Shown: piece by piece, positions 21,162 through 40,271 of the stretch | Numbering within the stretch: position 1 is the first letter of the stretch | Layout of the letters: every line of letters begins with the position of its first letter | Source: Streptomyces prunicolor NBRC 13075 | GTDB lineage: Bacteria; Actinomycetota; Actinomycetes; Streptomycetales; Streptomycetaceae | Direction: 5' to 3' | Length of the DNA: 64,000 bases | Assembly (NCBI RefSeq): GCF_000367365.1 | Contig: NZ_BARF01000060.1 | Location: forward strand, 1 to 64,000 | Program-made: the position numbers and the translations under genes | The notes under the pieces: model-generated | The model's database searches: none | Seen by the model: only the letters and a program-made list of their open reading frames with translations | What the model was told of the DNA's origin: nothing

Positions 21162-24100
21162 TCAGGGGATTTGCTGGTAGAGGGCGGTGACCTGGTTGGG
21201 GGTGAGGGTGTAGTTCCAGGCCTGGACGGTGCTGATCAGGCCGGGGAAGAAGTCGTTGTTGGTGCCGTTGTGGAGACTGCGGCCGATGGTGAAGGCGTTG
21301 GCGGCGTTCCAGGAGGTGACACCTGTGGCGGTGGCGGCGAGGCTGCCGTTGAGGTAGAGCTGGGCGGTTTTCGTGGTGGCGTCGTAGGTGCCGACCAGGT
21401 GGGTCCAGGTGTTGGCGGTGGCCGCCGTTGTTGAGTCGGCGACTGTGAGGGCAGGGTCGGCGGTGTCGGTGTTCGCGAAGGCGAGGGCCCAGCGTGGGCT
21501 GCCGGGGTCCGCGTAGTCGTACTGGAGGTAGAAGGGGCTGTTCTGGGTGCCGTCCTGGGCGGCGACGGTGGCGTTCCTGGTGGGCAGTGAGGAGAGTTTC
21601 ACCCACGCGGAAACGGAGTAGCTGCCGGCCGTGTTGAGCGCCGGCCCGCTGCCGGCGGCGTAGCCGGTGGTGCCGTCGAAGGAGAGGGTTTCGCCGCGGG
21701 TGGTGTCGTTGGTCCAGGTGGTGGTGCCGTTGAGGGTGAGGGTGTTGCTGCCGACGCCGGTGGTGTCGTTGACGGTGTAGGGGGTGTCGGTGGGGGCGGT
21801 GTCGTTGGCGATGGTGAATCCGTCGCCGTCGTCGAGGGCCCAGGTGTCGTGGGGGGAGAGGATGGCGAGGCCCTCGGCGGCGTACCCGGCGTTGGTGAGG
21901 TTGACATGGTCGCCGGCGTCGGCGGCGGTGGCGAGTTTGTCCTCGCCGTTGCCGGTGTCGGGTACGGCGAGGGCGGTGTTGAAGTCGGCGTAGTAGACCG
22001 GCGGGGTGGACCAGGGGCTGCCGAGGTCCATGTCGTCGAGCCAGTCGTTGACGTCGGTGCGGTTGGCGTCGACCGTGCTGGTGCAGGGGTCGTTGGCGGT
22101 GGCGCCGTCGCCGGTGAAGCCGTCGCAGGGGGTGAGGGAGGTCAGCGTGGTGGAGATGCCCCAGCCTTGGAGTTGTTGGACGAGGGCGGTGTAGCCGTTG
22201 GCTTCCAACTCGTCCGGGGTGCTGCCGCCGAGGAGGTCTTCGAGGCCTTCGTAGACCACGACGTTGCTGATGCCGGGCTGGTCGAGGATGTCGCGGTCGA
22301 TGCGGGAGAGGGCTGAGGGGCCGCCGAGGATCTTGGAGTTGTAGAGCTGCGGGTTGTCGGTCATGAGGTCGTTGGATTCGATGCCCTCGGCGATGGTGCC
22401 GTAGGGGGTGGGGGTGGTGGGTTCGGCGCCTTCCAGAGTGTCGGAGACGCGGTTTCCGCTGGTGATGGGGGTGGTGTTGGGCTGGAAGGCGTCGATGAGT
22501 CCGTCACCGAGCACCGCTTCGGTCGGGATGTGGCCGGTGGTGACGTCGACGTTGGTGACGAGGTCGGTGAAATAGCCCTGCAGGGTTCCGGTGGTGCCGG
22601 CGAAGGGCGTGCCGGTGGTGTCCGTGGTCTTGTCCCCGGCGCCGCTGACGGTGACGTACTGGTAGGCGTTGTTGGCGAAGGAGTGCTGGACCAGGTACGG
22701 CACGGAGTTGGTCAGCTGATAGGAGACGAGGAGGTAGTGGTTGGCGGTGACGGGGAAGGTGAGCGGGTCGCTGTAGACGGAACCGCCCTCTGGGATGGCC
22801 ACCGCCTGGCTGCCGCCGAAGGTGAGGGTGGTGGGGGTGGCGGCGGGCACGGCGGAGATGACACCGGACCCGGAGGCCTGGGCGATGGTGGCGTGGCCGA
22901 TGGACAGCAGGCTGGAGCCGATGGCGTTGTCGAGCTTGATGCGGACGGTGTTGCCGGAGATCGAGGCGGGCAGGGCGATACGGAAGGTCTGGTTGGAGAA
23001 GTTGGCGCCCTGGAAGTTGTACTGGCCCTCGTTGGGGTTGGCCCAGGCGCCGGTCCAGCTCTGGCCGGCCGGTGCGGCGGCTGTGGCGCCTTTGGCCTCG
23101 GGTGTGCCTGTGGTGGTGTTGCGGGTGGCCATGCCGAAGATGTGCAGGGACTGGGTGTGGTAGCCGATGTGGTTGCCCACGTCGGGCAGCGTCACCGAGG
23201 CGATGGTCTTGGCCGGGTCGATGGGTACGGAGAAGGCGTAGAGCCGGTGCGGGGTGGTGGTCTGCCCGGAGGTGTTGTTGCGATGGGGCAGGACCACGGC
23301 GGCGATGGAGTCGGCGCTGACGGTCCAGCCGGGAACGGTCAGGTCGTATGTCGCGGTGGTGCCGTCGGTGTAGGTGACGGTGCCGGTGGCCGCGCAGGCT
23401 CCCGTCGGGTCGGTGCCCGAGAAGCAGTACGAGCCGCTCACCGGGGTGTCGGCCGGGACGTAGGGCGCGGTGTCGTCGTTGGCGATGGCTCCGGGGGTGG
23501 ACAGCCCCGACCAGGTGGAGGTGGCCAGGAACTCCAGCGCGTTTCCGGAGCCGTTGTAGGTGATGGTCTGGTTGGCGGCCAGGACGTTGTCCTTCTGTCC
23601 GGCTCCGTAGGCGGGCAAGGTGAAGGTCGCTCCGTCGACCGTGACTTTGCCGGCGCTGGCCCAGCCTGCGGTGGCGAGGTCGGTGGCGGAGTAGCTGTCG
23701 CCGCTGCCGTCCAGGTCGGCCTGGGCGGGGGTGGCGTCGGCGCTGATGCCGGTGTTGTTGAAACACGCGGACAGGCTCGTGCAGGTGGTGTTCGGGTCCC
23801 CGGCGGCCAGGAACGGGTAGCCGGTGGTGCCGGAGTCGTCGCCCGCGGCGTCCACGGCATACACCCAAAGGGTGTGCGGACCGGGGGAGTAGGGAGTGAT
23901 GGTCACCGCGGCGGCGTTGCTCGTGGCGGTGACGATCTGGGAAGCGGGCGGGTTGCTGGTGGCGGGCGGTACGTCGACGGAGTAGACGAACTTCGTCGCG
24001 CTGGCCCCGCCGCTGGTGGACACGTTGAAGGTGCCGGCGGTGCCGGCCGCGGCGCCTGTGACCCCGTCGTTGTCGGTGTTGGGGTAGAGGTTGTTCTTCG

Positions 24101-26129
24101 AGGTGACGGTGGGGGCGCTCGGCGCGGTGGGTTCGGCCACGAAGTGGCAGGTCGGGGACTGGGTGTAGGCGGTGGAGTCCTCACCGTCGGTGACCTTGAC
24201 CTGCCAGTCCACGATCTGGCCGCTGGTCAGCGAGCTGATAAAGCTCGCCGGCAGGCTGTAGGCGGCGTTGGAGCCGCTGGCCAGGTTGTCGCCGCTGAGC
24301 CCGGTGTGCAGGGTGGTGGAGCCGTTGATCCAGTACTGGAAGGTCGCCTGCAACTTGTCACTGTCGGCGTCGGAGACCTTCGCCCTCAGCACGGGCGGGG
24401 TGCTGGCGATGGTCTTGCCCATGTACGGGTAGTCGGGGCCGGTGGTGTCGCAGGCCGCGTCGTCCGCGCCGGCTACCGCTGCCATCGTCGCTTTGGAGGG
24501 GGCAGAGGGAGGGCGGTTGTAGAAGATCTCCAGGCTGGGGTTGTGCGAGAAGCGGGAGAAACCGCCGTCGTCGTGGCCGGCCTCGGCGGAGTCCTCGCTG
24601 AGTGTGGCGGTGAAGGTGGCCGAGTGACCGGCGGCGTTGTGCTTGATGGGGGTGAGCACGTTCAGACCGTGGGTCACCGAACCATTCGAGGGGCAGTATG
24701 TCGGGTTGTAGGCGCGAGCGAAGGCGACGGAGGTGGAGTAGCTGTTGTAGCCGGGCCGGTTGTTCCAGTCGGTGCCCGATCCGATGCCTCCGGACCAGTG
24801 CAGATTGACGGTGTAGGAGCTGGAACAGGACGCGGAGTAGATCTCCGTGGCGTTCACGGTCGCGGTGTTGATGTGCGCGCCGAAAAGGGTGGAGGACAGC
24901 TTCCACTGGTAGATCGCATGTTCCTTGCCGGTGTAACAGGCGCCCTCCTGCCAGCCGTTGTAGCCGACCCCCAGGTATCCGTTGTCGGCGAGCGAGCCAG
25001 TCTGGTTGTAAAAGGACTTGCTGGGACAACCCTGTTTGACCTCGTCGAAGGCCGGGGCGGCGGGATCGTACGGGTGCCAGTTGAACGTGGGGTCGATGTA
25101 GACCGGGAATACCGTGGAGCGGGCCGTCAGCATCCGCGAGTCCGGAACGAGGGACAGCTGTGAGGCGGACACCTTCGTACCCACCGGTGCCTCACGCGCG
25201 GCCAACCCGGGGTGCGCGGCGTCCGAGGAGTCCGCGGCGACCTTGGCCGTGCTCGCCGTATGCGCCTTCTTGGCTGCCGAAGTTGGCAGCACGGTGTTGG
25301 AGTCCCACATCATCGGGCTGGCCGCGTCCATGAGGTCCCGGCCACGGATGTCACGCAGTGCGAGATCGTCCGAGTTGCCCCGGGCCAGGCGGCCGCCGGT
25401 CACCTGGGTACCCAGACGGAGGGTGGCCAGCGCCGGGTTCCGCGCGGCGGCAGGGGACTTGACAACCAGCGTGTCGGTGAAGCCGCCGGCGGCGGTGGCC
25501 GAGACCACCAGGTCCACCGAGGGCAGCACGGACCGGTAGGTCGCGGATCCACCCTTGACGACGGGGGCGGGCAGCGTCCCTGGCCAGGAGACGGCCATGC
25601 TCACGCCGCCGTAATGGGTGGTGACCAACGGGGCGTGACCACCACCGGAGAAGGACACCGTGCCGTACGCGGTTGCGGCCGGGGACCAGGTGCCGTCGCT
25701 GTTGTGGTGCAGTGTCATGTCGACAGCGACCCAGCTTCCGTGCTGCTTTACGCGCACGGGCTCGGGGTTGGCCGACAGTTGGAATCCGCCGCCGGGACTG
25801 GCGGTCACCTGCTGGACGGGGGTTGTCAACGAGCTGATCGTGACGGCTTTCCCGGTCTTCTGTGCTGTCGCCGCAGCGGTCTCCATCGCCTCAAGCTGGG
25901 GGGCCGACGGACCATAGCCGTTCGACAGCTGAGGCAGATCCGATTGCTCGGACGTGTCGTCGGCGACTGGGGCGGAGGCGCCAGAGGAGTAGAGGGCCGC
26001 GCCCCCAGGAGTGTCGGCATAGGCGGGGGGCAGGCTCGCTGTGGCGGCGAGCAGGGCAAGCGTGGCGGTGACGGCGGCTCTGCTCCGGCCGGTGGTTCTG
26101 CGTGCGCCGGGTATGCGGTGCCTTCGCAT
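21162..26129 (-). CDS. giant secreted protein with SGNH-like (inactive) and C-terminal LamG domains
   Basis: A 1655-residue exported protein. The signal peptide has RR-containing basic start, hydrophobic core and cleavage after YA near residue 38. Residues about 80-350 form the N-terminal region common to Streptomyces RHS/LamG surface proteins. Ig-like and discoidin-like segments follow. Residues about 1010-1430 match the two-part layout of SGNH esterases (jelly-roll plus hydrolase, with GPSALSRIDRDILDQPG). The catalytic positions are changed: GDG for GDS, GLED for GIND, DHVN for DHLH. Residues 1470-1655 are a LamG/concanavalin-like fold. It is divergent from the RHS gene. AGAGGTGGA ahead of ATG 26129 sets the start. 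Confidence 0.82.
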   Translation of the reverse strand: MRRHRIPGARRTTGRSRAAVTATLALLAATASLPPAYADTPGGAALYSSGASAPVADDTSEQSDLPQLSNGYGPSAPQLEAMETAAATAQKTGKAVTISSLTTPVQQVTASPGGGFQLSANPEPVRVKQHGSWVAVDMTLHHNSDGTWSPAATAYGTVSFSGGGHAPLVTTHYGGVSMAVSWPGTLPAPVVKGGSATYRSVLPSVDLVVSATAAGGFTDTLVVKSPAAARNPALATLRLGTQVTGGRLARGNSDDLALRDIRGRDLMDAASPMMWDSNTVLPTSAAKKAHTASTAKVAADSSDAAHPGLAAREAPVGTKVSASQLSLVPDSRMLTARSTVFPVYIDPTFNWHPYDPAAPAFDEVKQGCPSKSFYNQTGSLADNGYLGVGYNGWQEGACYTGKEHAIYQWKLSSTLFGAHINTATVNATEIYSASCSSSYTVNLHWSGGIGSGTDWNNRPGYNSYSTSVAFARAYNPTYCPSNGSVTHGLNVLTPIKHNAAGHSATFTATLSEDSAEAGHDDGGFSRFSHNPSLEIFYNRPPSAPSKATMAAVAGADDAACDTTGPDYPYMGKTIASTPPVLRAKVSDADSDKLQATFQYWINGSTTLHTGLSGDNLASGSNAAYSLPASFISSLTSGQIVDWQVKVTDGEDSTAYTQSPTCHFVAEPTAPSAPTVTSKNNLYPNTDNDGVTGAAAGTAGTFNVSTSGGASATKFVYSVDVPPATSNPPASQIVTATSNAAAVTITPYSPGPHTLWVYAVDAAGDDSGTTGYPFLAAGDPNTTCTSLSACFNNTGISADATPAQADLDGSGDSYSATDLATAGWASAGKVTVDGATFTLPAYGAGQKDNVLAANQTITYNGSGNALEFLATSTWSGLSTPGAIANDDTAPYVPADTPVSGSYCFSGTDPTGACAATGTVTYTDGTTATYDLTVPGWTVSADSIAAVVLPHRNNTSGQTTTPHRLYAFSVPIDPAKTIASVTLPDVGNHIGYHTQSLHIFGMATRNTTTGTPEAKGATAAAPAGQSWTGAWANPNEGQYNFQGANFSNQTFRIALPASISGNTVRIKLDNAIGSSLLSIGHATIAQASGSGVISAVPAATPTTLTFGGSQAVAIPEGGSVYSDPLTFPVTANHYLLVSYQLTNSVPYLVQHSFANNAYQYVTVSGAGDKTTDTTGTPFAGTTGTLQGYFTDLVTNVDVTTGHIPTEAVLGDGLIDAFQPNTTPITSGNRVSDTLEGAEPTTPTPYGTIAEGIESNDLMTDNPQLYNSKILGGPSALSRIDRDILDQPGISNVVVYEGLEDLLGGSTPDELEANGYTALVQQLQGWGISTTLTSLTPCDGFTGDGATANDPCTSTVDANRTDVNDWLDDMDLGSPWSTPPVYYADFNTALAVPDTGNGEDKLATAADAGDHVNLTNAGYAAEGLAILSPHDTWALDDGDGFTIANDTAPTDTPYTVNDTTGVGSNTLTLNGTTTWTNDTTRGETLSFDGTTGYAAGSGPALNTAGSYSVSAWVKLSSLPTRNATVAAQDGTQNSPFYLQYDYADPGSPRWALAFANTDTADPALTVADSTTAATANTWTHLVGTYDATTKTAQLYLNGSLAATATGVTSWNAANAFTIGRSLHNGTNNDFFPGLISTVQAWNYTLTPNQVTALYQQIP

Positions 26130-27083
26130 GGGGACATCCACCTCTGTCTGAGACCTGAAGATCCAGTAGTTCACGACGCTAGGAGTACGCCGCTGTCCGT
26201 GACCAGAGGGGCACGGTGGGTGGAGGCGATCATTCCGCCCGATTGACGGGGAAACGTTGTCATGTAGGTGACGTAAAGGTCTGGTCATGCCTGCATCGGA
26301 GGGTTCATCGAGCGTCAAGGGGTGGGTAGCGTCCGCTCGGATCGAGTGATCGTTATGGACGCAGAGGGGCGGGGCGCTGTGGTTTCTGGTAGACACCGGG
26401 GCGGCAAGGCTGCCCCGAACGGGCCGGGCCGCAAGTGCCTGGCCGAGCCGGATTGCACTGCCCGCTCCCACTGTGGCTCTCGCCGCGATGGTCTTATGCG
26501 CCGAACTCTTACTGGCAACGCCGGACGCTGTGGCCGTTCAGCACCAGGCGCCAACCCCTGCCTATGACGAGCCGGTACCGGTCTCCGCTGTCGCCTCGCA
26601 CTGCCACCAGCCCAAGCCCATGCCGGCCTACCGGCCCACGCACGTCTCACGGCCCTCCGGTGCGGCGAAGGTCGCCCTGAGGGGAATTGGGGCGACGACG
26701 AAGCAGGCATCCGGTACCGCGATGCGCGCCGGATCGGCCAGGCGAAGACCTCAGCGAAGCGCAACGTCGCGTGAGGTATGTCATCGGATTCCTGTCTCCA
26801 GGTCTCGGTCCAAGGGCTGGCCCGGCGGCGAATACAAGTGGCCGTCCGGGACCCCGCAAAGATCAATTCGGCACGCTGACGCCCTATGTGACCAGCCATC
26901 CGAAAGTAGCGACATGCCCATGTCGTAAATCTGACGCGAGATTCCCGAGCGGCAATTCCTGGACGGTTGTCCTGGGTGCGTTCCGTTGCGACTTCAAGAT
27001 CGACTTCATCGACTTCCATCGGCATCCGAAGGAGCAAGTTCTTGCCAAGGACGATAGGTTCACGCGCCCGGACGGGCGGCCGA
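26130..27083. other. divergent intergenic region between LamG and RHS genes
   Basis: About 950 bases should hold the two divergent promoters; no clear consensus box was picked out. It contains a degenerate copy of an RHS gene 5' end (26473-26695). The remaining stretch (26700-27080) has no recognisable gene. Confidence 0.5.
26473..26695 (+). pseudogene. remnant of an RHS-type gene N-terminus
   Basis: The frame from GTG 26473 reads as a signal-peptide-like hydrophobic stretch (LAAMVLCAELLLATPDAVA) followed by EPVPVSAVASH and, later, SRPSGAAKV. The same order (KPVPVTAVRSH, then KWPSGTAVF) opens the intact RHS protein 600 bases downstream. The similarity then fades and no RHS repeats follow. 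It contains TTA codons, unlike the intact gene. Likely the stump of a former RHS gene or a partial duplication. Confidence 0.45.
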
Positions 27084-30000
27084 GTGAGACCCGTGGGCCC
27101 CCTGATACGCGGGCTGACCGCCATGACGGCGGCGATCTCCGTGATCGTGGGCCTCACCGGTACGGCCGAAGCGGTCTCGAACCACCGGCAACCCGGCCTA
27201 ACCCAGGTCAAGCCGGTCCCGGTGACCGCCGTACGCTCCCACTACGGCCCGGTCCGGCACCTGGCCAACTCGCCCTCACCGAAGGTGAAGTGGCCCAGCG
27301 GTACCGCTGTCTTCGCTGCCACCGCGATGACCGCTGCGGCCCCGACAGCAACGGGCGGCACTGCCGCGAACACGCATGCGGCATCCGGCGCCCGGCTCCG
27401 GGCGGGCAGCCTCCCGGTCTGGCTGGCACCCTCCGCCGGCCTCTCCCTCGGCCACGCCGCGGTGCGTATCCTGCCGCAGCGGACCGGGCAGTCGGCCGGT
27501 GTCGACGGAGTGCTGCTCAAGTTGTCCGGGCTGCCGAGCGGCAGCCACGGAAAAGTGAAAGTCGGCCTGGACTACCGGGACTTCTCCGCCGCGTTCGGCG
27601 CCGACTGGGGCTCGCGGCTGCGGCTCGTGAAGCTGCCCGACTGTGCCCTGACCACGCCGCGACTCGCCTCCTGCCGCACGCAGACCCCCGTTGCCTCGGC
27701 CAACAGCGCCACGGCGCATACCCTTTCGGCCCCGCTCACCCTCGCCAAGAACAGCGTGGTCCTGGCGGCCACCGCCGCGCCGAGCGGAGGTGGTGGTGAC
27801 TTCGCCGCCACCTCGCTGAAGCCCTCCGGCTCCTGGCAGGCCGGCGGCAGCACCGACGCGTTCACCTGGTCCTACCCGATCACCGGGCCCAGCGTTCCCG
27901 GCGGGCTGACTCCCAATCTCTCACTGGGCTACGACTCCCAGAGCGTGGACGGCCTGACCTCGTCCACCAACAACCAGGCCTCGGTCGTCGGCGACGGCTT
28001 CTCGCTGCCGAGCAACTACATCGAGCGTTCCTACGGCTCCTGCCACGACAATCCCACCGGCGCCACAAAGACTTGGGACAACTGCTGGTCGTCCGACAAC
28101 CAGCTCACCCTCTCGCTCAACGGCACCACCACCACCCTGATCAAGGACGACACCACAGGGACCTTTCGGGCCCAGGGCGACTCCGACGAGCGCGTCGAGC
28201 GGCTGACCGGCGCGACCAACGGCGCCCAGAGCGGCGAATACTTCCGGGTGACCACGTCGGACGGCACCCAGTACACGTTCGGCCTGAACAGGCTGCCGGG
28301 GTGGGCGTCAGGGAACGCGACCACCAACTCGGTGCTGACCGAGCCCGTCTACAGCACCGACTCGACCCAGCCCTGCTACAACGCCACCTGGGCCAACTCC
28401 TGGTGCCAGCAGGGCTACCGCTGGATGCTCGACTACGTCAAGGACACCCACGGCGACGTGATGTCCTCCTTCTACACGCCGACCACTGCCTACTACGCGC
28501 GCAACCTCGGCAAGACCGCCGACACCCCCTACGTGCGCGACGCGGTGCTCGCGAAGATCCAGTACGGCCAGCGCGACGGCTCGGTGTACTCCACCAGCCC
28601 CGCCGCTCAGGTCACCTTCGCCTACAACGGCCGCTGCAACACCTCCGCCACCGGGTGTGCCACCTCCACGCTGACCAGTTCCACCGCGTCCCATTGGCCG
28701 GACGTACCGTTCGACCTGAACTGCGCCAGCGGCGCCACCTGCTCGGCCAACTCCCCGACGTTCTGGAGTGAGAACGAGCTGACGGGCGTTCAGACCCAGG
28801 CGTTGGTCGGCTCCACCGAGACGAACGTCGACTCCTGGGCGTTCACCTACTCCTTCCCCGCCACCGGGGACGCGACCACGCCCTCGCTGTGGCTGAATTC
28901 GGTCACCCGCGCCGGCCAGGACACCTCCGCCGGCGGTTCCACGTCGGCGCTCGCCATGCCGAAGGTGACCTTCTCCGGCGCGCCGTTGTCGAACCGGGTG
29001 GACGTGACCGACGGCTACCCGCCGATCACCCGTTACCGGCTCAACACCATCACCACCGAGTCCGGCGGCATCATCAGCGTCGGCTACTCAACCGCCGCCT
29101 GCGCGAGCGGCACCCCGAGCGACGCCGGCCAGAACACCTCTCTGTGCTACCCCGGTTACTGGACTCCCACCGGGCAGACCAGCCCGATGCTGGACTGGTT
29201 CAACAAGTACGTCGTCACCGCGGTCACCCAGCAGGACCCGACCGGCGGCGGCGTCAACGACACCATCACCACCCGCTACCTCCCCGTGGGCACCCCCGCC
29301 TGGCACTACGACGACAATCCGCTGACCCCCACGGCCCAGCGCACCTGGGACCAGTGGCGAGGCTACGGTGGCATGAAGGTCACCACGGGCACCGCGCCCG
29401 ACCCGGTCACCGAGACCGACTACACCTACTTCCGCGGCATGGACGGGGACACCCTGTCCGGTGGCAAGACCCGCTCGGCGGCCGTCACCGACTCCCGCGG
29501 CGATCCGCCGGTGACCGACTCGGCCCAGTACGCCGGTCTGACCTACGAGACGATCCTCTACAACGGGCTGAACAGCGGAAAGGTCGTCAACGACACGATC
29601 GCCGCACCCTGGAGCAGCAGCGCTACCGCCGTCCACGCGCTGTCCGGCGGGCTGCCGGCGCAGAAGGCGTTCCTGACCGGCCAGAACGCGGTCAATGTCT
29701 TCACGCCGCTGGCGTCCGGGGCCACCCGGGAGACCGAGACCGACTACACCCGCGACTCCCACGGCCGCGTCACCAGGGTCGACGACAAGGGCGACGTATC
29801 CACCGCGACCGACGACCTGTGCACCACGGCGAGCTACGCGGACAACACCTCCACAGGGATCTTCGACCTGGTGGACGAGACGAAGACGGTGTCCGTCAAC
29901 TGCTCGGCCACCCCGACGCTTCCGGACGACGCCGTCAGCGACAAGCGGGTCTACTACGACGGCTCCGGCACTCTGGGCGCCGCACCCACGGTCGGTGACC

Positions 30001-33000
30001 CCACCTCGACCCAGCAGGCCACCTCGTACAAGGGGTCCACCCCGGTCTACTCGACCATGTCGTCGCTCACCACGGACGTCTACGGTCGGACGCTGACCAG
30101 CACCGACGCCGACCAGCGGACCGCCACGACCGTCTACACCCCGACCACCGGCGCCGCACCCACCGCCATCGTCTCCACGGACCCGCTGCAACAGACGCTC
30201 AGTCAGACCTACGACCCGCTTCGCGGGTTGATGCTGACGCAGACCACCGCGGCCGGCTACGTCACCAAGGCGCAGTACGACGCGCTGGGGCGGATCACCG
30301 CCGTGTTCCGGCCCGGCATCACCGACGCCACGACCAAGTACAGCTACACGCTCGCCGCCGACAAGCCGAGTTCCGTCATCACGCAGACCCTGAATGACGA
30401 CGGCAGCTACCGCAGCAGCGAACTGCTGATGGACGCGCTGCTTCGGCCTCGCGAGACGCAGATCACCACCGTCGACGGCGGCCGGGACGTCACCGACACC
30501 GTCTACGACACCAACGGCTGGGTGGTCAAGTCCACAGCCCCTTACTACACCACTGGCGCCCCCAGCTCCACGCTGGTGCAGGCGCAGGACGGTGACATCC
30601 CCTCAGAAAGTGGCTTCACCTACGACGGTGCCGGACGCAAGACCGTGGCCACCGCCTATGCGCTGGGCACCGCCACCTGGAACACCACCACCGTCTTCGG
30701 CGGCAACTTCACCACCACCGTGCCCCCGAAGGGCGGCGTGGCCGAAACCACGATCACCGACGCCCGGGGACGCCAGACCGACCTGTACCAGTACCACGCC
30801 GGCGCCGCGGCCGACCCGGTCCACGCCGCCGCCTCGGACTACTCCGACACGCACTACACGTACTACCCGGACGGCCACCAGGCCGGCCAGACCGACCCGG
30901 CAGGCAACACCTGGACCTGGACCTACAACCTCCTCGGCGACCAGGTCGCGGCGACCGACCCCGACTCCGGTGCCTCCTCGGCGACCTATGACAACGCGGG
31001 CCAACTGCTCACCACGACCGACGCCCGGGGCGACCAGGCCCAGTACGACTACGACAAGGACGGCCGCAGGACCGCGGCCTACGACATCACCGGCAACGCC
31101 ACCGCGTCCACCGCCAACCAGATCGCCGCCTGGACGTACGACACGCTGAAGAAGGGGTACCTCACCTCTTCCACCTCCTACCAGCTGGGCACCACCAGGG
31201 CCTCGGTCACCAACACGGTGCTCGCCTACACCGGCATGGGCGAGGTCGCTGCCTCGAAGACCACGCTGGCCAACCTGCCGAGCAACCTGGCACCGCTGGC
31301 GCCGTCCGCCGGCTACACGGAGGCCTACACGTACAAGATCACCGGTACGCTGTCGGGCCGGCAGGACCCGGCGGGCGGCGGACTGCCCGCTGAATCCGTC
31401 AACTACGGCTACGACCAGTACGGTCAGGTCACCAGCGTCGGCAGCACCGGCACCGCCGCCTGGACGTACGTCTCCGCCATCGGCTACGACGAGTACGGCG
31501 ACCCGCTCCAGTACTCCATGGGCCCGACCACCAGCTGGGTCGATCTGACCCTGAAGTACGACCCGCAGACCGGCCAGCCCACCGACGCCAAGACCACCGA
31601 TTCCACCAGCGCCACGGTTGTCGACGACACCAGCTACACCTGGGGGAACTCGGGCGTCTCCAAGGGCGCAGGACTGCTCACCTCGACCACCGACAGCCAG
31701 AACGGCGGCTCGGTCACGGACACCCAGTGCTACGGCTACGACTGGGCAGCCCGCCTGACCTCGGCTTGGACCGCCACCGACAACTGCGCCGCCACACCCG
31801 ACACCGGCAGCAGCGCCACCGTCGGCGGCACCAACCCCTACTGGCAGACGTGGAGCTACGCCGCCGACGGCCAGCGCCAGACACAGACCGACCACGACAC
31901 CTCCGGCAACAGCGCCGACGACACCACCACGACCTACCACTACCCGGACCCGGGCTCCGCGACCGACCAGCCGCACACGCTCGGCAGCACCACCGCCACC
32001 GGCCCGGCGACCGCCGCGAACACGGCGTCATACCACTACGACGCATCCGGCAACACCACCTCGATCCAGGGCGGCGCACTGGGCGACCAGACCCTGACCT
32101 GGAACCACCAGAACCGGCTGGACACCGACACCACGTCGGCCGGCGCCACCAGCTACCTCTACGGCCTCGACGGCGGCCTGGTGCTGCGCACCGACCCGAC
32201 CCAGGCCACGCTCTACCTGGGCGACGAGGAGCTGGTGGAGAACACCGCCACCAAGGCGGTGACCGGCACCCGCTACTACTCCGTCAACGGCACCACCGTG
32301 GCCGCCCGCTCCAGCAGCGGGAACGTCCAGTACCTGATCCCCAACCGGCAGGGTACCGACTACCTGTCCGTCGACTACCAGACCCAGGCGGTGACACGGC
32401 GCCAGTACCTGCCGTTCGGCGGGACCCGCGGCGCGGCCCCGGCCTCCTGGCTCGGCGACAAGGGGTATGTGGGCGGCACCACCGACACCGCCACCAGCCT
32501 GGTGAACCTCGGTCTGCGCGAGTACGACACGCAGACCGGCCGCTTCGTCAGCCGAGACCCGCAACTGGAGGCCACCGACCCCTCGCAGCTGACGGGCTAC
32601 GACTACGCCGCCAACAATCCGGTGACCGGCAGCGACCCGACCGGACAGAGCTGGTTCAGCTCCCTCTCCAACGCGGTCTCCAGCTTCGCCGACACTGCCC
32701 AGCAGGTCATCGACCGGACCAACGGTCCCATGGCCGCACTCGGCGTCGGGCAGCTGCTGCTCGGCGGAGCTGCGGACGGCCTGGGCGGCGCGCTCATGGC
32801 GTCCGGCATCGGGGCGCTCGGACCGGGCGAGGCCCTGATCTGGGCGGGCTCCGCACTCGCCGTCACTGGCTCCGCCACGGTGGCCACCGCTGTCGCAGCG
32901 CCGAATATCGCGTTTGCCGTCCGGAACGGTGATGGCGGCGGGGGCGGCGACGACGGGGGTGGGTCCGACGGCTCGTCCGCCGAGGATTCGAGCCGGGACG

Positions 33001-33557
33001 CGGATGCGCAGTCCTTGGTCGGTGAGCACAAGAATCAAGGGCGGACCTCGCAGCTCACCCTGGACAACGCCTACCGCTCGCTGGACGGCGCCCCGGAGGG
33101 GACCCGGTCCCAGCTTCTGCCCGAAGAACATGAATACAAGAACATGCCGGGTTATAAGAACCCTGACCTCGAGTACCTCGACCAGCAGGGCAACGTCGTC
33201 GGCTATGGCGAGGTCAAGACGGTTGGGGATGCCGATCAGGGAGTCTTCAACAAGCAGCTCGCCAAGGCCGTCCAGCAGCTGCGCGTTCGCGAGGACGTGG
33301 AGGGGGAGATGGACGTCAACGAGATCTTCGTTCAGGTCCCCGACCTGGTCGATGCTCGGGAGGTCAAAGGGTGGGTCCGCGCCTATCAAAAAGGCCGCCT
33401 GCATCATGGGAGCGACCTCGAAAAGATCCGCGGATACCATGTGCGGGTCTACACCGAAAGCGGTAGCAAATTGGCTGACTTCGACCTCGGGATCGACGCC
33501 GACGAAGGCCACGTCGTGGACCACACCTACTATTCGCCGAACGGGTACTCCTACTGA
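27084..33557 (+). CDS. RHS/YD-repeat polymorphic toxin with PD-(D/E)xK-like nuclease tip
   Basis: About 2157 residues. A signal peptide (core MTAAISVIVGLTGTAEA) leads to an N-terminal region, then a long shell of YD repeats (YDxxGRxTxxxD pattern, about residues 900-1750). The RHS core ends with LREYDTQTGRFVSRDP and NPVTGSDPTG near 1850, where the toxin tip is normally released. After a hydrophobic segment and a Gly/Asp-rich linker (about 1950-1970) comes the tip. There DLEYLDQQGN and GYGEVKTV give an Asp...Glu-x-Lys arrangement typical of restriction-fold nucleases; this is my inference. Start uncertain between GTG 27084 and GTG 27093. A family of cognate-looking immunity genes follows. Confidence 0.9.
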   Translation: MRPVGPLIRGLTAMTAAISVIVGLTGTAEAVSNHRQPGLTQVKPVPVTAVRSHYGPVRHLANSPSPKVKWPSGTAVFAATAMTAAAPTATGGTAANTHAASGARLRAGSLPVWLAPSAGLSLGHAAVRILPQRTGQSAGVDGVLLKLSGLPSGSHGKVKVGLDYRDFSAAFGADWGSRLRLVKLPDCALTTPRLASCRTQTPVASANSATAHTLSAPLTLAKNSVVLAATAAPSGGGGDFAATSLKPSGSWQAGGSTDAFTWSYPITGPSVPGGLTPNLSLGYDSQSVDGLTSSTNNQASVVGDGFSLPSNYIERSYGSCHDNPTGATKTWDNCWSSDNQLTLSLNGTTTTLIKDDTTGTFRAQGDSDERVERLTGATNGAQSGEYFRVTTSDGTQYTFGLNRLPGWASGNATTNSVLTEPVYSTDSTQPCYNATWANSWCQQGYRWMLDYVKDTHGDVMSSFYTPTTAYYARNLGKTADTPYVRDAVLAKIQYGQRDGSVYSTSPAAQVTFAYNGRCNTSATGCATSTLTSSTASHWPDVPFDLNCASGATCSANSPTFWSENELTGVQTQALVGSTETNVDSWAFTYSFPATGDATTPSLWLNSVTRAGQDTSAGGSTSALAMPKVTFSGAPLSNRVDVTDGYPPITRYRLNTITTESGGIISVGYSTAACASGTPSDAGQNTSLCYPGYWTPTGQTSPMLDWFNKYVVTAVTQQDPTGGGVNDTITTRYLPVGTPAWHYDDNPLTPTAQRTWDQWRGYGGMKVTTGTAPDPVTETDYTYFRGMDGDTLSGGKTRSAAVTDSRGDPPVTDSAQYAGLTYETILYNGLNSGKVVNDTIAAPWSSSATAVHALSGGLPAQKAFLTGQNAVNVFTPLASGATRETETDYTRDSHGRVTRVDDKGDVSTATDDLCTTASYADNTSTGIFDLVDETKTVSVNCSATPTLPDDAVSDKRVYYDGSGTLGAAPTVGDPTSTQQATSYKGSTPVYSTMSSLTTDVYGRTLTSTDADQRTATTVYTPTTGAAPTAIVSTDPLQQTLSQTYDPLRGLMLTQTTAAGYVTKAQYDALGRITAVFRPGITDATTKYSYTLAADKPSSVITQTLNDDGSYRSSELLMDALLRPRETQITTVDGGRDVTDTVYDTNGWVVKSTAPYYTTGAPSSTLVQAQDGDIPSESGFTYDGAGRKTVATAYALGTATWNTTTVFGGNFTTTVPPKGGVAETTITDARGRQTDLYQYHAGAAADPVHAAASDYSDTHYTYYPDGHQAGQTDPAGNTWTWTYNLLGDQVAATDPDSGASSATYDNAGQLLTTTDARGDQAQYDYDKDGRRTAAYDITGNATASTANQIAAWTYDTLKKGYLTSSTSYQLGTTRASVTNTVLAYTGMGEVAASKTTLANLPSNLAPLAPSAGYTEAYTYKITGTLSGRQDPAGGGLPAESVNYGYDQYGQVTSVGSTGTAAWTYVSAIGYDEYGDPLQYSMGPTTSWVDLTLKYDPQTGQPTDAKTTDSTSATVVDDTSYTWGNSGVSKGAGLLTSTTDSQNGGSVTDTQCYGYDWAARLTSAWTATDNCAATPDTGSSATVGGTNPYWQTWSYAADGQRQTQTDHDTSGNSADDTTTTYHYPDPGSATDQPHTLGSTTATGPATAANTASYHYDASGNTTSIQGGALGDQTLTWNHQNRLDTDTTSAGATSYLYGLDGGLVLRTDPTQATLYLGDEELVENTATKAVTGTRYYSVNGTTVAARSSSGNVQYLIPNRQGTDYLSVDYQTQAVTRRQYLPFGGTRGAAPASWLGDKGYVGGTTDTATSLVNLGLREYDTQTGRFVSRDPQLEATDPSQLTGYDYAANNPVTGSDPTGQSWFSSLSNAVSSFADTAQQVIDRTNGPMAALGVGQLLLGGAADGLGGALMASGIGALGPGEALIWAGSALAVTGSATVATAVAAPNIAFAVRNGDGGGGGDDGGGSDGSSAEDSSRDADAQSLVGEHKNQGRTSQLTLDNAYRSLDGAPEGTRSQLLPEEHEYKNMPGYKNPDLEYLDQQGNVVGYGEVKTVGDADQGVFNKQLAKAVQQLRVREDVEGEMDVNEIFVQVPDLVDAREVKGWVRAYQKGRLHHGSDLEKIRGYHVRVYTESGSKLADFDLGIDADEGHVVDHTYYSPNGYSY

Positions 33558-33660
33558 TCCGCCTGTTGCGGCTGTCTGACACCAGGCTGTAGCCCGGAGC
33601 AGGAGCGGATGCGTACCGTCAGGACGCGTCCGCCCCTGCCTGTTCGAAAGGCGCGTTTCC

Positions 33661-34335
33661 TTGTCCTCGACGCTTTACCGCGTGCGTGAACCGTTTCCAG
33701 ACGCTTTGAGCGCGCTGTCGCGGGCGCGCGCGATCATGCGCGACCTGACCGACTGGACGGCCGAGCCCTGGCCTCAGCTGGACAAGGTCACCACGGTCGA
33801 GCAATTCACCTACGCACTTCGCACTTTCGACACCGCCCGGTTCACCGCGGACCGGGTACCTCACGTCTTCCCTTTCATGGACGAGTTGCGGCGCCGGGGA
33901 GTCGTCACGTTCGACGCCCGGCAGATGAAGTCCTGGTTCAGCGGCGACGTGCGGCTGGGCCCGGACCTGGCGGATCTTTGGCCCCTTCCCGAGAGCGTGG
34001 ACCTCTCCCTGGCTGCGACTCCGCCCTTCGGCGCGCCCGGGGGTGAACCTGAGGACACCTGCACCGAGGAGGAACTGGACCGGATGGTCTCGGTGCTTGG
34101 CCCGCTGACCATGAGCGTCATCTGGGACTGCGCCTGGCGTGGTCTCCCGGAGGCCAAGGGCTGCGGCGTGCTGCTCTGCCTGAACAGCGTCTGGCTGCGG
34201 CAGCACGACGAGCCGTCCCCCGGCGAGTTCGGCGTCTGGATCTCCCTCGGCCCCCGCGTCGCCTGGACGCCTGAGGGCCAAACCTGGGTCCGCGACTCCG
34301 GACTCCCGCTGGGTCAACCCGAGGAAGGCTGGTGA
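33661..34335 (+). CDS. putative immunity protein to the RHS toxin
   Basis: A 224-residue cytoplasmic protein with no signal peptide, directly after the toxin gene, where RHS immunity genes sit. I do not recognise its family. Visible features: STLYRVREPF start, EELDRMVSVLGPL, and a conserved end PSPGEFGVWISLG...VAWTPEG. The start is TTG at 33661, preceded by GAAAGG; the same TTG context is kept in two further copies, which supports it. The second copy (34650-35327) is similar along its whole length. Presumed to neutralise the tip nuclease by binding it. Confidence 0.72.
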   Translation: MSSTLYRVREPFPDALSALSRARAIMRDLTDWTAEPWPQLDKVTTVEQFTYALRTFDTARFTADRVPHVFPFMDELRRRGVVTFDARQMKSWFSGDVRLGPDLADLWPLPESVDLSLAATPPFGAPGGEPEDTCTEEELDRMVSVLGPLTMSVIWDCAWRGLPEAKGCGVLLCLNSVWLRQHDEPSPGEFGVWISLGPRVAWTPEGQTWVRDSGLPLGQPEEGW

Positions 34336-34544
34336 CCCGGACGCCACGCGCCCCCTTACACGCCAGTGCAGGCAAGGCGTGCGAGCCACTTGCGCGGGGT
34401 GGCGTCAAGTCGATCCGAGGGTTCCGTCTGCGGGTCTTCAGCGAAAGCGGCAACAGTCTGGGGACCTTCGACTTGGGCGCCAATGCTGACGAAGGCCGTG
34501 TCGAGGGACGTACCTACTATTCGTCGAACGGGTACCTCTACTGA
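34332..34544 (+). pseudogene. orphan toxin tail (RHS tip remnant), unit 2
   Basis: Reads IRGFRLRVFSESGNSLGTFDL...DEGRVEGRTYYSSNGYLY. It aligns with the last 40 residues of the intact toxin (IRGYHVRVYTESGSKLADFDL...HTYYSPNGYSY). Only the tail is left, so it has no nuclease site. The open frame starts at a GTG overlapping the previous immunity stop by GTGA, so a 70-residue peptide could in principle be made. It is best read as a displaced tip fragment that a silent cassette left behind. Confidence 0.7.
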
Positions 34545-34649
34545 TCCGCCTGCTGCCGCTGTCCGACATCAGGCTGAAGTCCGGGACAGGGGCGGATGCG
34601 TACCCGTGAGGGCACGTCCGCCCCTGGCCCTGTTCGAAAGGCACGTTCC

Positions 34650-35327
34650 TTGTCCTCGACGCTCTACCGAGTGCGTGAATCCTTTCTCGACGCCCCGAGC
34701 GCGCTGGGCCGCGCGCGAGCGATCTCGCGCGATCTCGCCGACTGGACCTCTTGCCCGACGCCCCGCATGGAGCCGGTCACCACAGCCGAGCAATACGCCT
34801 ACGTCCTCTCTGCCTTCGACACCGCCCGCATCTACGGGAACCGGAGAGAACCCGGCGTCGGCCTCTCTCTGGAGGAACTGCGGCGTCGCACCGTCGTCAC
34901 GTTCGACAACGACGAGCCGAACTCCTGGTTCGCCGGGTACGTGAGACTCTGCCCCGACCTGACCGACCTCTGGCCGCTGCCCGCGGGGCTGACCCTCACT
35001 CTGGACTCGACCTCGCCCTTCGGTGATCCTTACAGCGAGCCCGACCCCGACTGCACCGAGGACGAACTGGATCACATGGTTTCCGTTCTCGGACCGTTGG
35101 CTCTGAACGCAAGCTGGGACTGCGGCTGGCGCGGTCTCGCCGAGTCCAAGGACTGCGGCGTGCAACTCTGCGCCAACAGCGTCTGGACGCGCCAGATCGC
35201 CGAACCGTCCCCCGGCGAGTTCGGCGTCTGGATCTCCCTCGGCAACCGCATCGCCTGGACGACCGAAGGCGAGAGCTGGCGCCGCGACTGCGGACTTTCG
35301 CTGGGCGAACCCCAGCAAGGCTGGTGA
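34650..35327 (+). CDS. putative immunity protein, second copy
   Basis: A 225-residue paralogue of the first immunity protein: same STLYRVRES start, EEQYAYVLSAFDTARIY, SWFAGYVRL, EDELDHMVSVLGPL and PSPGEFGVWISLG. The TTG at 34650 follows GAAAGGCACGTTCC. Many substitutions but no frameshifts, so it is under selection or recent. It would protect against a different tip variant, or act as a spare. Family unrecognised. Confidence 0.7.
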   Translation: MSSTLYRVRESFLDAPSALGRARAISRDLADWTSCPTPRMEPVTTAEQYAYVLSAFDTARIYGNRREPGVGLSLEELRRRTVVTFDNDEPNSWFAGYVRLCPDLTDLWPLPAGLTLTLDSTSPFGDPYSEPDPDCTEDELDHMVSVLGPLALNASWDCGWRGLAESKDCGVQLCANSVWTRQIAEPSPGEFGVWISLGNRIAWTTEGESWRRDCGLSLGEPQQGW

Positions 35328-35499
35328 CTTGGACGCCCGGAGCTTTACGCCCCGGTGGAGGCGAGGCGTGGGGGGTGACGCCGGGGTGGGGCGGAACACG
35401 TGGGCGAAGCAATGGAGGTCGGGCAGGCTGCCCGGCAGTCTTCCCCGGCGACCGGCAGGCAGGTGCCGGTCAGCAGCCAGCCAGCCTCGCTGGACTCAG

Positions 35500-35624
35500 G
35501 GGTCCCCTCTGCGGGTCTACACGAAAGCGCCGACAGCCTGGGCGACCTCGACCTCGGCAGCAACGCCGACCAAGGTCACGTCGAGGTACATACCTGCTGT
35601 CTGCTGAACAGTTGCTCCTGCTGA
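35500..35624 (+). pseudogene. orphan toxin tail, unit 3
   Basis: Reads GLHESADSLGDLDLGSNADQGHVEVHTCCLLNSCSC, matching the toxin end (VYTESGSKLADFDL...HTYYSPNGYSY). All four tail tyrosines are cysteines here, each by an A-to-G change, and a frame slip lies near 35518. It is a decayed fragment. Confidence 0.6.
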
Positions 35625-35727
35625 ACCGCTGGCTACCGCTGTCTGACTTCAGGCTGTAATCCGGGATGGGGCGGATGCGTACTGTGAGGACGAGTCCGCC
35701 CCTGGTCCCGTCCGAAAGGCACGTTCC

Positions 35728-35852
35728 TTGCCCTCGACGCTCTACCGAGTACGCGAACCCTTTCTCGACGCAGTGAGCGCGCTGTCGCAGGCACGGGCGA
35801 TCATGCGTGACCTGACCGACTGGACGGCCGAGCCCTGGCCTCAGCTGGACAA
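35728..35852 (+). pseudogene. third immunity gene, truncated
   Basis: From TTG 35728 it follows the first immunity gene closely (STLYRVREPFLDAVSALSQARAIMRDLTDWTAEPWPQLDN). The match ends abruptly at 35852, after CAGCTGGACAA. Beyond that the DNA is unrelated and less GC-rich, so the gene was cut by a rearrangement. Confidence 0.8.
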
Positions 35853-35948
35853 TCGTCCCAAGTAGTTACCAATCAAGCTGGGATTGGAGTGGTCCACTAC
35901 GGCGTATCTCTGTACAGCGAGCTTTCTGTGCAAGCCTTCCAGGCTCAT
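35841..35948 (-). pseudogene. start of an unknown gene, cut at the same junction
   Basis: The ATG at 35948 has AAGGAG 10 bases upstream and opens MSLEGLHRKLAVQRYAVVD, HSNPSLIGNYLGRL. It then enters the truncated immunity gene and stops after two residues. It lies 61 bases downstream of the ImmA/IrrE gene in the same direction, so it was probably the third gene of that operon before truncation. Family unknown. Confidence 0.5.
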
Positions 35949-36009: not shown

Positions 36010-37170
36010 TCAGGCTCGACGTAGTGTGACGACGTTGCTGGGGAGCGAGGACTGTGCTGTCTTGGCATGCTCCTGGACTACTGCCGGGGCTTCCCTCAGG
36101 CCAGAGGTGATCTGTTCCATCAGGTCGGGGGCCCAGCCGCCGGTGAGGGTGGTGAAGAGGTCTGGGGTAGGCCGTTGCTCCAGGCCGCGTTCAGCCATTA
36201 CGGCGAGCAGACGTGGCCGCTCGGGTTCCAGATCGGCCCATCCGGGTTCCTGGATCCTCCAGGTGACTCCCGTGTGGGGATCGCGGCGTGCGGAGAGCTG
36301 CTTGAAGAGGCCCGTGGCGCGGTGTTCCTCAACGAGACCGAGGTGCTTGCCGTGCGTGATGATCGCCGCGAGTGACATCTTCCAACGCTGCTTCAGCGGC
36401 ATCAGGGACGTGAGTGTGACGGCACCGGGCCACTCCTCGCGGAGCATGTCAGCGGGAAACAGGAACTCGTTGGCGAAGCGGTTGGCGGCATCTTCGTCTA
36501 CCTCGCCTGTGGTTCCACGATGCAGGATCAGGTGGCCGGCCTCGTGGGCGATCGACCAACGCGTGCGCTCCCACGAGTTCACCGGCCGCGCGACGATCAG
36601 AGGTTGTTCGTGAAAGTCCCCACCCCATACGGAGAAGGCGTCGTGTCTGGCGTCTGGCATGTCGACGTCGGCGACGGCAACGGGTACGCCGGCGCGTTCC
36701 AGCGTGTGGATGACATGGGGGATCGGCTCGGATTCGGGAAGGTCGAGTGCCTGACGGGTCTGCCGGGCAGCTTCTTCGGGACTGATGTCCTGGCGTAGCG
36801 CCATCGGCAGACGGAGAGGGGGCTGCGTGGCGTGTTCGCCGAGGGCGGTCACGAGCTCAACGATCATCTCGGCCAAGGTGGTGAGGGCGTCGATCTGCGC
36901 CACCTTGATCGACTTCTTGCTGCGGAACAGCAGCGAACCGCGGTGAATGGGTAGCCCCGGAGGCTGGGAGAAGAACTCGGCGGGAAACCTCAAGCGGGTC
37001 GCGAGAGTTCTGAGCTTGAGACGCGGCATGTCCGTGGACGTCGAGCGTTCGAGCGCGGTCCACGCCGAGGGGGACATGTCCAGCATCTGCGCGAGAGGCT
37101 TGATGGGGCTTTGGCGGATCGTCCGTGCCTGACGGACGCGATATCCGTAGACGGCGATCGTGTCAGCCAC
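36010..37170 (-). CDS. XRE regulator fused to ImmA/IrrE metallopeptidase
   Basis: A 386-residue protein: N-terminal helix-turn-helix (residues about 10-60, LAQMLDMSPSAWTALERS), then an ImmA/IrrE zinc peptidase (about 140-300). The site is WSIAHEAGHLILHR with HExxH and a downstream Glu/Asn block (DEDAANRFANEFLFP). ImmA of ICEBs1 cleaves its repressor, and IrrE/DdrO controls DNA-damage genes. XRE-ImmA fusions often form toxin-antitoxin-like or stress switches. GTG start at 37170. The gene upstream (37204-37857) ends 33 bases away and is likely co-transcribed. Confidence 0.9.
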   Translation of the reverse strand: MADTIAVYGYRVRQARTIRQSPIKPLAQMLDMSPSAWTALERSTSTDMPRLKLRTLATRLRFPAEFFSQPPGLPIHRGSLLFRSKKSIKVAQIDALTTLAEMIVELVTALGEHATQPPLRLPMALRQDISPEEAARQTRQALDLPESEPIPHVIHTLERAGVPVAVADVDMPDARHDAFSVWGGDFHEQPLIVARPVNSWERTRWSIAHEAGHLILHRGTTGEVDEDAANRFANEFLFPADMLREEWPGAVTLTSLMPLKQRWKMSLAAIITHGKHLGLVEEHRATGLFKQLSARRDPHTGVTWRIQEPGWADLEPERPRLLAVMAERGLEQRPTPDLFTTLTGGWAPDLMEQITSGLREAPAVVQEHAKTAQSSLPSNVVTLRRA

Positions 37171-37203
37171 AGCAGCCCATCTCCATTGTCTATCTGTGAG
37201 GGG

Positions 37204-37857
37204 CTACGCCTGAGTTGGTGTATCCCCTGTTCCGTCGGCTTCCCGAGGGTGGCGCCGGTCGACCAGGTCGTCGAAGTCGTCGTTCACCGCGCTGGCGACG
37301 GTCGCAACGTTAGCGTGCTTCAGAGTGGCGAGAAGAGGCACCTCCGTCGACGCGCAGACAGTCATCGGAGAGCGGTTGAGCTCCTCGAGGTCGTCCACGA
37401 TGACGGCCCTGAAGTCGGCCATGAGATCACTCGGGTCGATGTGCCATACAAGAACGGGGGTCAGGCCGACGTCCAGACCGTCGCCGTCGGCGTCGAAGAT
37501 CGGGGGTTGATGGACGTCAGGAGGGCGGTACGCCGCTGCGTTGAGCACGGGCGGCTCCTTGGCCTTGCGGACGCGTATTTCGTGGCCGGTGCGCTTCTCA
37601 CGGAGACACACTGAGCGGTTCGGCTTCTCCACGAGGGTGAACTTGCCCGACCCGAACACCGGGTTGTCGGCGGCGAGCAGGACGCGGTCCCGCATCTCCA
37701 TGGCCACCACCGCCCCCTGCACCTTCTTGGGGACCGGGCGCTTCTTCCGCTCGACCTCCATGGCGACAGCGAGGCTCTGTTCGCAGTACTCACGCATCCG
37801 CGCCAGATCCACCGCATTGCGCTCCACGAACGCATCGAGCCACGACTGTGGGTTCAT
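37204..37857 (-). CDS. unknown protein paired with XRE-ImmA
   Basis: A 217-residue protein I do not recognise. It begins MNPQSWLDAFVERNAVDLARM and is rich in charged residues, with a beta-rich middle (NRSVCLREKRTGHEIRVRK). An acidic end segment reads NDDFDDLVDRRHP. No signal peptide or membrane segment. Being first in a two- or three-gene operon with an ImmA-type peptidase, it could be the toxin or the peptidase target. The ATG at 37857 has only a weak ribosome site; the frame is open upstream to 38046. Confidence 0.6.
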   Translation of the reverse strand: MNPQSWLDAFVERNAVDLARMREYCEQSLAVAMEVERKKRPVPKKVQGAVVAMEMRDRVLLAADNPVFGSGKFTLVEKPNRSVCLREKRTGHEIRVRKAKEPPVLNAAAYRPPDVHQPPIFDADGDGLDVGLTPVLVWHIDPSDLMADFRAVIVDDLEELNRSPMTVCASTEVPLLATLKHANVATVASAVNDDFDDLVDRRHPREADGTGDTPTQA

Positions 37858-38268
37858 GCCTGAAATTTTCGCGGTGAACCCACATGGTGTCAACTCGTTT
37901 TCGAAAGAGTCGAGTTGGCGCAGGGGGTGGCTGCCGTAGTCCGACATGAGTTTCCGCAGGCCAGACAGGAGCGGTGCTCGCCAGGTCCTCCCTGAAGAAT
38001 CTTGTGATACCCAACTGTGCCCCGTCGTCCGAAAGTGACCGGGCATGGGGAGCCGACTACACGCCGTGATTCGAGGTCAGGCAGGCCGTCGTCGGCCCAG
38101 CGGGAGTGGTGACCGCGGCGGGAAGGGTCTGTCGGATGGGCGGGTGGCGACTCCTGGCGGACGGTCAGGAGTCGCCACCCGGTCGCACTCCGGTGTGCCC
38201 AAGATTTCCGTAGGCTGCATTGCTGGCAAGCAAAGCGATGAGCTGGTGAACCGCCGCCCGGTTCCTGT

Positions 38269-39894: not shown

Positions 39895-40271
39895 GCAGCT
39901 GCCGATGCAGTCGGCTCCGAGCATGCACCCTGACTGCTGGACGGAGTGGGAGTGCGGTTGTACGTGAGCTTCACCCGCAGGGTGGCCTCACTGGTCGACC
40001 CCGCCACGATGAGACTTCCTTCTGCGCTGAACCGCAGTCCAAATTCCACCTCCAGTGCATCCGGCCGGGCTGCGCGTCGACCGGTTTCTTCGATCATCCT
40101 CGCTGTGGACGTTGCTACCTCCACGATGGCCGTCTGCGCTCGGTTGAAGGCATCCTGCACCCTCTGCGTCGCATCACCGATCCGCGAGAGCTCCTCTGTG
40201 CCACTGACTTGAGCTGTTTCCACCAACAACTCCGCCTCACCAACCCGAACAGCGATCGTTCTAGCTGTCAT
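39891..40271 (-). CDS. Trypco1 (trypsin-co-occurring domain 1) protein
   Basis: A 126-residue protein: short beta strands (TIAVRVGEAELLVE), a long helix (GDATQRVQDAFNRAQ...), then the hallmark PDALEVEFGLRF, SLIVAGSTSEATLRVKLTY. This is the Trypco1 layout, known to occur next to trypsin-like proteases in bacterial conflict operons; its role is unknown. Its start at 40271 lies within 11 bases of the run-on end of an IS4 transposase, so the original promoter may have been displaced and the operon may now be read from the IS. Confidence 0.85.
   Translation of the reverse strand: MTARTIAVRVGEAELLVETAQVSGTEELSRIGDATQRVQDAFNRAQTAIVEVATSTARMIEETGRRAARPDALEVEFGLRFSAEGSLIVAGSTSEATLRVKLTYNRTPTPSSSQGACSEPTASAAA

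Follow-up and report, generated by a model that had tools for sequence, protein, structure and literature searches.

Why should a probably secreted protein, encoded beside an RHS toxin gene, carry an esterase fold in which the catalytic positions are all replaced? The question is raised by a gene of Streptomyces prunicolor NBRC 13075 that lies in the window, the stretch of 64,000 nucleotides analysed here as a whole. A sequence-only reading had described the product as a large secreted LamG protein whose SGNH-esterase domain keeps its layout but has lost its catalytic residues, and had suggested a role in binding, to carbohydrate or to a receptor.

The gene product and its domains

The large LamG protein proposed in that reading is confirmed (Table 1). 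Its Laminin_G_3 match scores 93.5 bits against a cut-off of 27.6 and is the sole above-cut-off Pfam match in the 1655 residues. The appearance of the N-terminus indicates that the protein is probably secreted. No Pfam family was found for the N-terminal platform or for the CBM-like module, a label coined in this analysis; the latter also precedes the SGNH domain in many relatives that bear the catalytic triad.

Table 1. Features of the partner gene and of its divergent RHS neighbour, with positions in the window.
Feature	Position	Strand	Basis or remark
Open reading frame	21162-26471	-	1655 aa when read from the ATG at 26129
RHS partner protein, 1655 aa, probably secreted	21165..26129	-	
Putative Sec-type signal peptide, residues 1-39	26013..26129	-	by eye
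N-terminal platform, residues 40-780	23790..26012	-	common to several kinds of RHS partner
CBM-like module, residues 785-1004	23118..23777	-	label coined in this analysis
SGNH unit, N-terminal part, residues 1015-1200	22530..23087	-	taken as beta-sandwich
Dead SGNH core, residues 1201-1425	21855..22529	-	phmmer, profile, site alignment
Block I Ser site, Gly1210	22500-22502	-	profile alignment
Block III Asn site, Glu1297	22239-22241	-	profile alignment
Block V His site, Asn1410	21900-21902	-	profile alignment
LamG (Laminin_G_3), residues 1485-1647	21189..21677	-	Pfam, E 1.8e-26
RHS protein, divergent from the partner gene	26967..33557	+	RHS_repeat 2.4e-6, Rhs_assc_core 2.4e-14
Variable C-terminal tip after RHS core, presumed toxin domain	32649..33557	+	
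Putative immunity gene 1	33595..34332	+	61% identical to putative immunity gene 2
Putative immunity gene 2	34596..35324	+	related to gene 1

Catalytic sites of the SGNH domain

SGNH/GDSL models from Pfam and NCBIfam gave no match in the window protein, for which NCBIfam found no family, and the Pfam model Lipase_GDSL_2 matched weakly in 2 of 26 clade members (best E 2.9e-4). Comparison of the window protein with solved SGNH proteins by phmmer nevertheless found 9kqz and 9kr0 (E about 1.8e-13) and 7tog (4.6e-12), and a profile of 26 relatives aligned with 9kr0 (E 7.5e-39) and 7tog (1.3e-34) over nearly the complete domain. By sequence, the domain is thus related to the SGNH fold family, and its layout is kept, as had been claimed. 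The entry code 7TOG occurs once in the text of a study of acetyl xylan esterases (PMC9105624). An AlphaFold model of the SGNH domain, made from six sequences only (the window and L039-L043, the latter from Streptomyces, Actinacidiphila and Streptacidiphilus), has a pLDDT of 36.6, too low for the model to be used.

In the profile alignment GDG of the window protein faces GDS of 9kr0, GLED faces GVND, and an Asn takes the place of the block V His, so that alignment with the solved esterases supports the claim that Ser, Asn and His are all replaced. The block V Asp is retained as Asp1407, and the neighbouring His1408, in the motif D-H-V-N, matches an extra His that precedes the catalytic His in many active relatives (D-H-L-H). 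An intact triad at other positions was not seen.

The same state extends across the clade, sampled here as 28 members (the window, L041, L044-L051 and L057-L074); L039, L040, L042 and L043, on contigs equal in length to G075:C555, G071:C30, G074:C4 and G078:C33, were not recounted. Ser is absent from the block I site of all 28, where Gly (18), Asn (6), His (3) and Gln (1) are found. The Asn site holds Glu in 17, Gln in five, Thr in two and Met, Lys, His or Asn in one each, the single Asn being that of L049. No member has His at the block V site, which is Asn in 27 and Val in L049, a sequence poorly aligned in this block; the block V Asp and Asn are each present in 27 of 28. Long ORFs are found at 26 of the 28 loci, L051 and L062 being broken. 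Among these 26, LamG is matched by Pfam in 20 and absent from six, and FG-GAP is matched in three; that none of them lacks the SGNH unit follows from their having been found by it. In a tree of 54 rows this dead lineage (27 rows, with the broken L051 left out) forms one branch side with 100/100 support. A class-wide search of 394 genomes at 1e-60 gave, besides the gene itself, matches only in ORFs of 458-877 aa.

SGNH copies without a nearby RHS gene are different, all 38 copies at 37 loci keeping the triad. The first set comprises 26 SGNH relatives picked from homology search matches (L052-L056, L083 and L114-L133), with the best copy read at each locus, L125 and L127 each holding a second. 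The complete triad is found in 26/26, and none of the 26 stretches, mostly 20 kb long (L053, 12 kb), contains an RHS match at E 1e-4. The second set, 11 loci chosen for long ORFs (L217-L227), has no RHS matches and contains 12 copies, all with Asn and His; Ser occurs as GDS in ten and as GAS or GSS in two, one of the L218 copies and L227. The triad is also present in L006, a locus outside the 37.

A second lineage of dead SGNH domains occurs in five other RHS partners (L170, L176, L214, L215 and L216). Here the Ser site holds Gln, the block V His is absent by eye in 5/5, and four retain the Asn, L216 being the exception. All five adjoin an RHS gene, that of L216 lying at a contig end with its start only visible. 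In L170, L176 and L214 a LamG domain is inserted, as judged by eye, inside the SGNH domain, after the region of block II and before that of block III. A tree of 71 rows that includes this lineage places all 32 RHS-linked rows on one branch side with 73% support only, from a quick search in which two end branches are long. It is possible that both dead lineages stem from one capture of an esterase.

Constraint was compared between five regions in each of six pairs, using Nei-Gojobori omega values from our own script; the comparison is confined to regions, since dS may be distorted by codon bias. Omega is below 1 in every region of all six pairs. The N-terminal part of the SGNH unit has the lowest value in five pairs (0.11-0.28); in the sixth, window-L041, the platform is lowest (0.395) and both SGNH parts stand at 0.50. 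The SGNH core is never the lowest region and lies above the platform in two pairs (L063-L067 and window-L041). Both SGNH parts fall below LamG in 6/6 pairs, the fastest region being LamG in three and the CBM-like module in the other three. The dead SGNH domain is under purifying selection.

We conclude that loss of catalysis in the window SGNH domain is well supported by these comparisons, since the RHS-linked copies lack Ser and His in 28/28 clade members and in 5/5 of the second lineage, the RHS-free copies keep the triad, and the dead domain is nonetheless held under purifying selection. The sequence-only interpretation is supported in this part, that of a catalytically dead domain. The gene itself is hardly likely to be a decaying pseudogene or an artefact: two members of the clade are indeed broken, but the omega values throughout the six pairs and the long ORFs of the other 26 loci argue against decay.

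Could the domain have acquired a new catalytic arrangement, built from Glu1297, Asn1410 and Asp1407? The near-invariant block V Asp and Asn, the prevalence of Glu at the Asn site and the purifying selection would all fit such a proposal, which we nevertheless consider quite improbable, for block I offers no conserved nucleophile (G, N, H or Q), seven different letters occur at the block III site, and the loss of residues took another form in the second lineage. The variable replacements in blocks I and III also argue against one conserved ligand contact at those sites.

The RHS gene and its partner family

The RHS toxin gene reported next to the partner gene is indeed there, and carries both RHS_repeat and Rhs_assc_core matches. 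Its start is uncertain (TTG at 26967, GTG at 27084 or 27093 and ATG at 27123 are among the candidates), and the start of the protein resembles a signal peptide by eye. The C-terminal tip gave no Pfam family; by eye its motif resembles that of a PD-(D/E)xK nuclease. Of 27 loci compared with the window RHS protein, 20 lose similarity to it at residue 1888-1921, four of them at the edge of the stretch; in the remaining seven, the end of the stretch or a truncation of the gene comes before that point. The five tips that could be read are similar in one of ten pairs (16 tips ran off the stretch). We consider that the RHS gene probably encodes a polymorphic toxin aimed at other bacteria.

The two related genes that follow the tip, for which no Pfam family was found, are probably immunity genes. 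With a third remnant and a remnant of an RHS tip at 34404-34541 they occupy 33595-35853, a region that looks like a stack of immunity genes with an orphan tip. Beyond it, near the RHS locus at 36010-39924, lie a gene with an M78/IrrE-like domain, weakly similar to an spr1629-type antitoxin, a trypsin-TPR gene that weakly matches an FxSxx system, and one gene that matches no NCBIfam or Pfam family.

An RHS gene is divergent and adjacent to the partner gene in 28/28 clade loci, the window included, and is a conserved partner, more than a neighbour. The S. prunicolor genome holds three further pairs, arranged in tandem (L075-L077). In a wider survey of 61 genomes, the platform gave 139 matches (E 1e-12), merged into 132 loci, and RHS gave 134 (E 1e-60), merged into 126. 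An RHS match occurs no more than 7 kb away at 110 of the 132 platform loci, and 108 of the 126 RHS loci have a platform match at this distance. Eighty of the 110 linked loci are divergent, 29 are tandem with the partner upstream and one is tandem with the partner downstream. The unlinked remainder, 18/126 RHS loci and 22/132 platform loci, may be overstated, as the number of candidates scored in each genome was capped, at 8 for RHS and at up to 17 for the platform, and certain loci sit at the end of a contig. Among the 22 platform loci that lack an RHS match, eleven occupy ORFs of more than 2000 aa; these are perhaps fusions, maybe to other stalks. When 20 RHS loci were read, 16 had a platform-bearing partner and four did not (L164-L166 and L171). 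The first three of these, all in one genome, are RHS genes of the window lineage; two complete pairs are also present there.

What follows the platform varies. A Pfam scan of nine partners (L167, L170, L172-L176, L180 and L181) matched LamG in L167, L170 and L176, B_lectin in L172, LGFP in L181, and FG-GAP above cut-off in L172, L174, L180 and L181 and below it in L173 and L175; Lipase_GDSL_2 fell below cut-off in L170 and L176. The window protein is one member of a modular family in which an N-terminal platform is joined to varying C-terminal modules (LamG, FG-GAP, B-lectin, LGFP or dead SGNH). Weak TcdB_toxin_midN matches, seen in L180:5890-10176 (below cut-off) and in one of 26 clade members, suggest a possible link to TcB-like propellers. 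In the S. prunicolor genome an ORF of 3655 aa (L078:3249-14216) matches RHS repeats in 27 stretches and LamG in four. We considered it as a one-chain fusion of partner and RHS protein; it has no platform match and so does not prove fusion of this pair.

The lineage of the RHS core tracks the type of partner. On a FastTree tree of 51 cores (L041 and L062 were dropped as short and L216 for want of a match), partner type requires seven changes, the least possible being four; shuffled labels need 23.0 on average, and none of 200 shuffles is as low. Most of the LamG labels rest on tblastn, and the FG-GAP group takes in two below-cut-off cases, L173 and L175, as well as L177, from outside the Pfam scan. 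Loci without a partner do not cluster. Both the linkage and the agreement with the tree could reflect joint inheritance. Another proposal is that the dead SGNH domain is a mere structural spacer, or a surface on which the RHS protein docks. This would suit the match between core lineage and partner type, and also the absence of LamG from 6/26 clade members and presence of FG-GAP in 3/26, from which these modules appear dispensable. In many other RHS partners, however, SGNH is not matched and modules of lectin or propeller type stand in its place, and we regard a spacer or docking role as unlikely.

Proposed role and relation to known systems

The reading we favour, and think rather probable, is that the window protein serves as a non-catalytic partner that aims or anchors the RHS polymorphic toxin, its dead esterase being reused for binding. 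It would be secreted as the partner of the divergently encoded toxin, with its platform (about residues 40-780) holding it to the toxin or to the cell wall. Its C-terminal modules would attach to a surface glycan, most likely that of target bacteria and possibly that of the producer's own wall. The SGNH unit would go back to a carbohydrate esterase, itself secreted, that was captured along with its CBM-like module; once Ser and His had been lost, it would have been retained to bind sugar or protein, in this case next to LamG; by analogy with umbrella toxin lectins, it may read an acetylated or related glycan. We infer secretion, the ligand, contact between the partner and the RHS protein and the identity of the bound cell, and likewise binding to carbohydrate or a receptor, for which the carbohydrate esterase descent, the lectin-type modules of other partners and the RHS linkage argue.

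A more general form of this proposal is possible but tentative. It would see in Streptomycetaceae-type bacteria a widespread two-gene RHS weapon, aimed by a separate secreted partner with varying modules, in which carbohydrate esterases have been turned into readers of (acetylated) glycans that no longer cut, some with a built-in lectin-type domain like that of the viral haemagglutinin-esterases.

The SGNH and LamG modules might instead fix the RHS toxin on the wall of the producer and not aim it at targets, an idea that overlaps the favoured reading, which leaves room for anchoring. LGFP repeats have a cell-wall role, and are found in one partner, L181. A survey of polymorphic toxins (PMC3482391) assigns laminin-G at the N-termini of toxins to anchoring on the producer wall, and PMC12704120 reports that the WapA protein of S. 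suis is found in the cell-wall fraction, which it attributes to the N-terminal part of the protein. Differences in modules between partners, and the rapid change of LamG in three of six pairs, look more like adaptation to varied targets, and the umbrella toxins of Streptomyces are described as aiming by lectins (PMC13274773). Anchoring to the producer as the true role therefore seems to us rather unlikely.

If the favoured reading is correct, it would show how a carbohydrate esterase can become an adhesion module in an antibacterial weapon, perhaps more than once, and makes target finding by the secreted RHS toxins of these bacteria open to experiment. It points as well to a conserved family of RHS partners of which, in the titles and abstract openings among the matches listed, no description was found, either of the pair or of the family. 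The main text of a paper on bacterial teneurins (PMC13018210) contains neither LamG nor SGNH. Dead SGNH domains of this kind should not be annotated as esterases.

The nearest solved relatives of the SGNH unit are the carbohydrate esterases 9kr0 and 7tog, related in sequence over nearly the whole domain; close to it as well are the secreted CBM-SGNH proteins of the same bacterial family, many of which have the CBM-like module in front of SGNH as the window protein has. The window protein differs from these esterases in lacking Ser, Asn and His and in its fusion to the RHS-partner platform. OSK, likewise, is not known to have the SGNH triad. By its description as an RNA-binding SGNH family (PMC9487903), the OSK domain (PF17182) offers a non-esterase parallel, differing in its RNA ligand and germline role. 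Another parallel lies in the viral haemagglutinin-esterases, HE and HEF, whose SGNH domains hold a jelly-roll receptor-binding domain (PMC9487903, section 11), much as L170, L176 and L214 hold LamG; viral HE keeps the triad, unlike the dead SGNH partners, and the likeness is a parallel rather than a shown homology.

In the RHS polymorphic toxins treated in PMC3482391, an RHS core is followed by a variable tip, as in the window RHS gene, and adhesion domains, including laminin-G and bulb-lectin, are carried by the toxin proteins themselves; here they are encoded apart from the toxin, by a gene that is mostly divergent from it and has a conserved platform. The umbrella toxins of Streptomyces, with their UmbA, UmbB and UmbC parts, may be compared in design. 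As described in PMC13274773 and PMC11062931, they are secreted antibacterial complexes that combine diversified lectins with polymorphic toxin domains, and the lectins are aimed at species-specific surface glycoconjugates (PMC13274773); our comparison is one of published descriptions.
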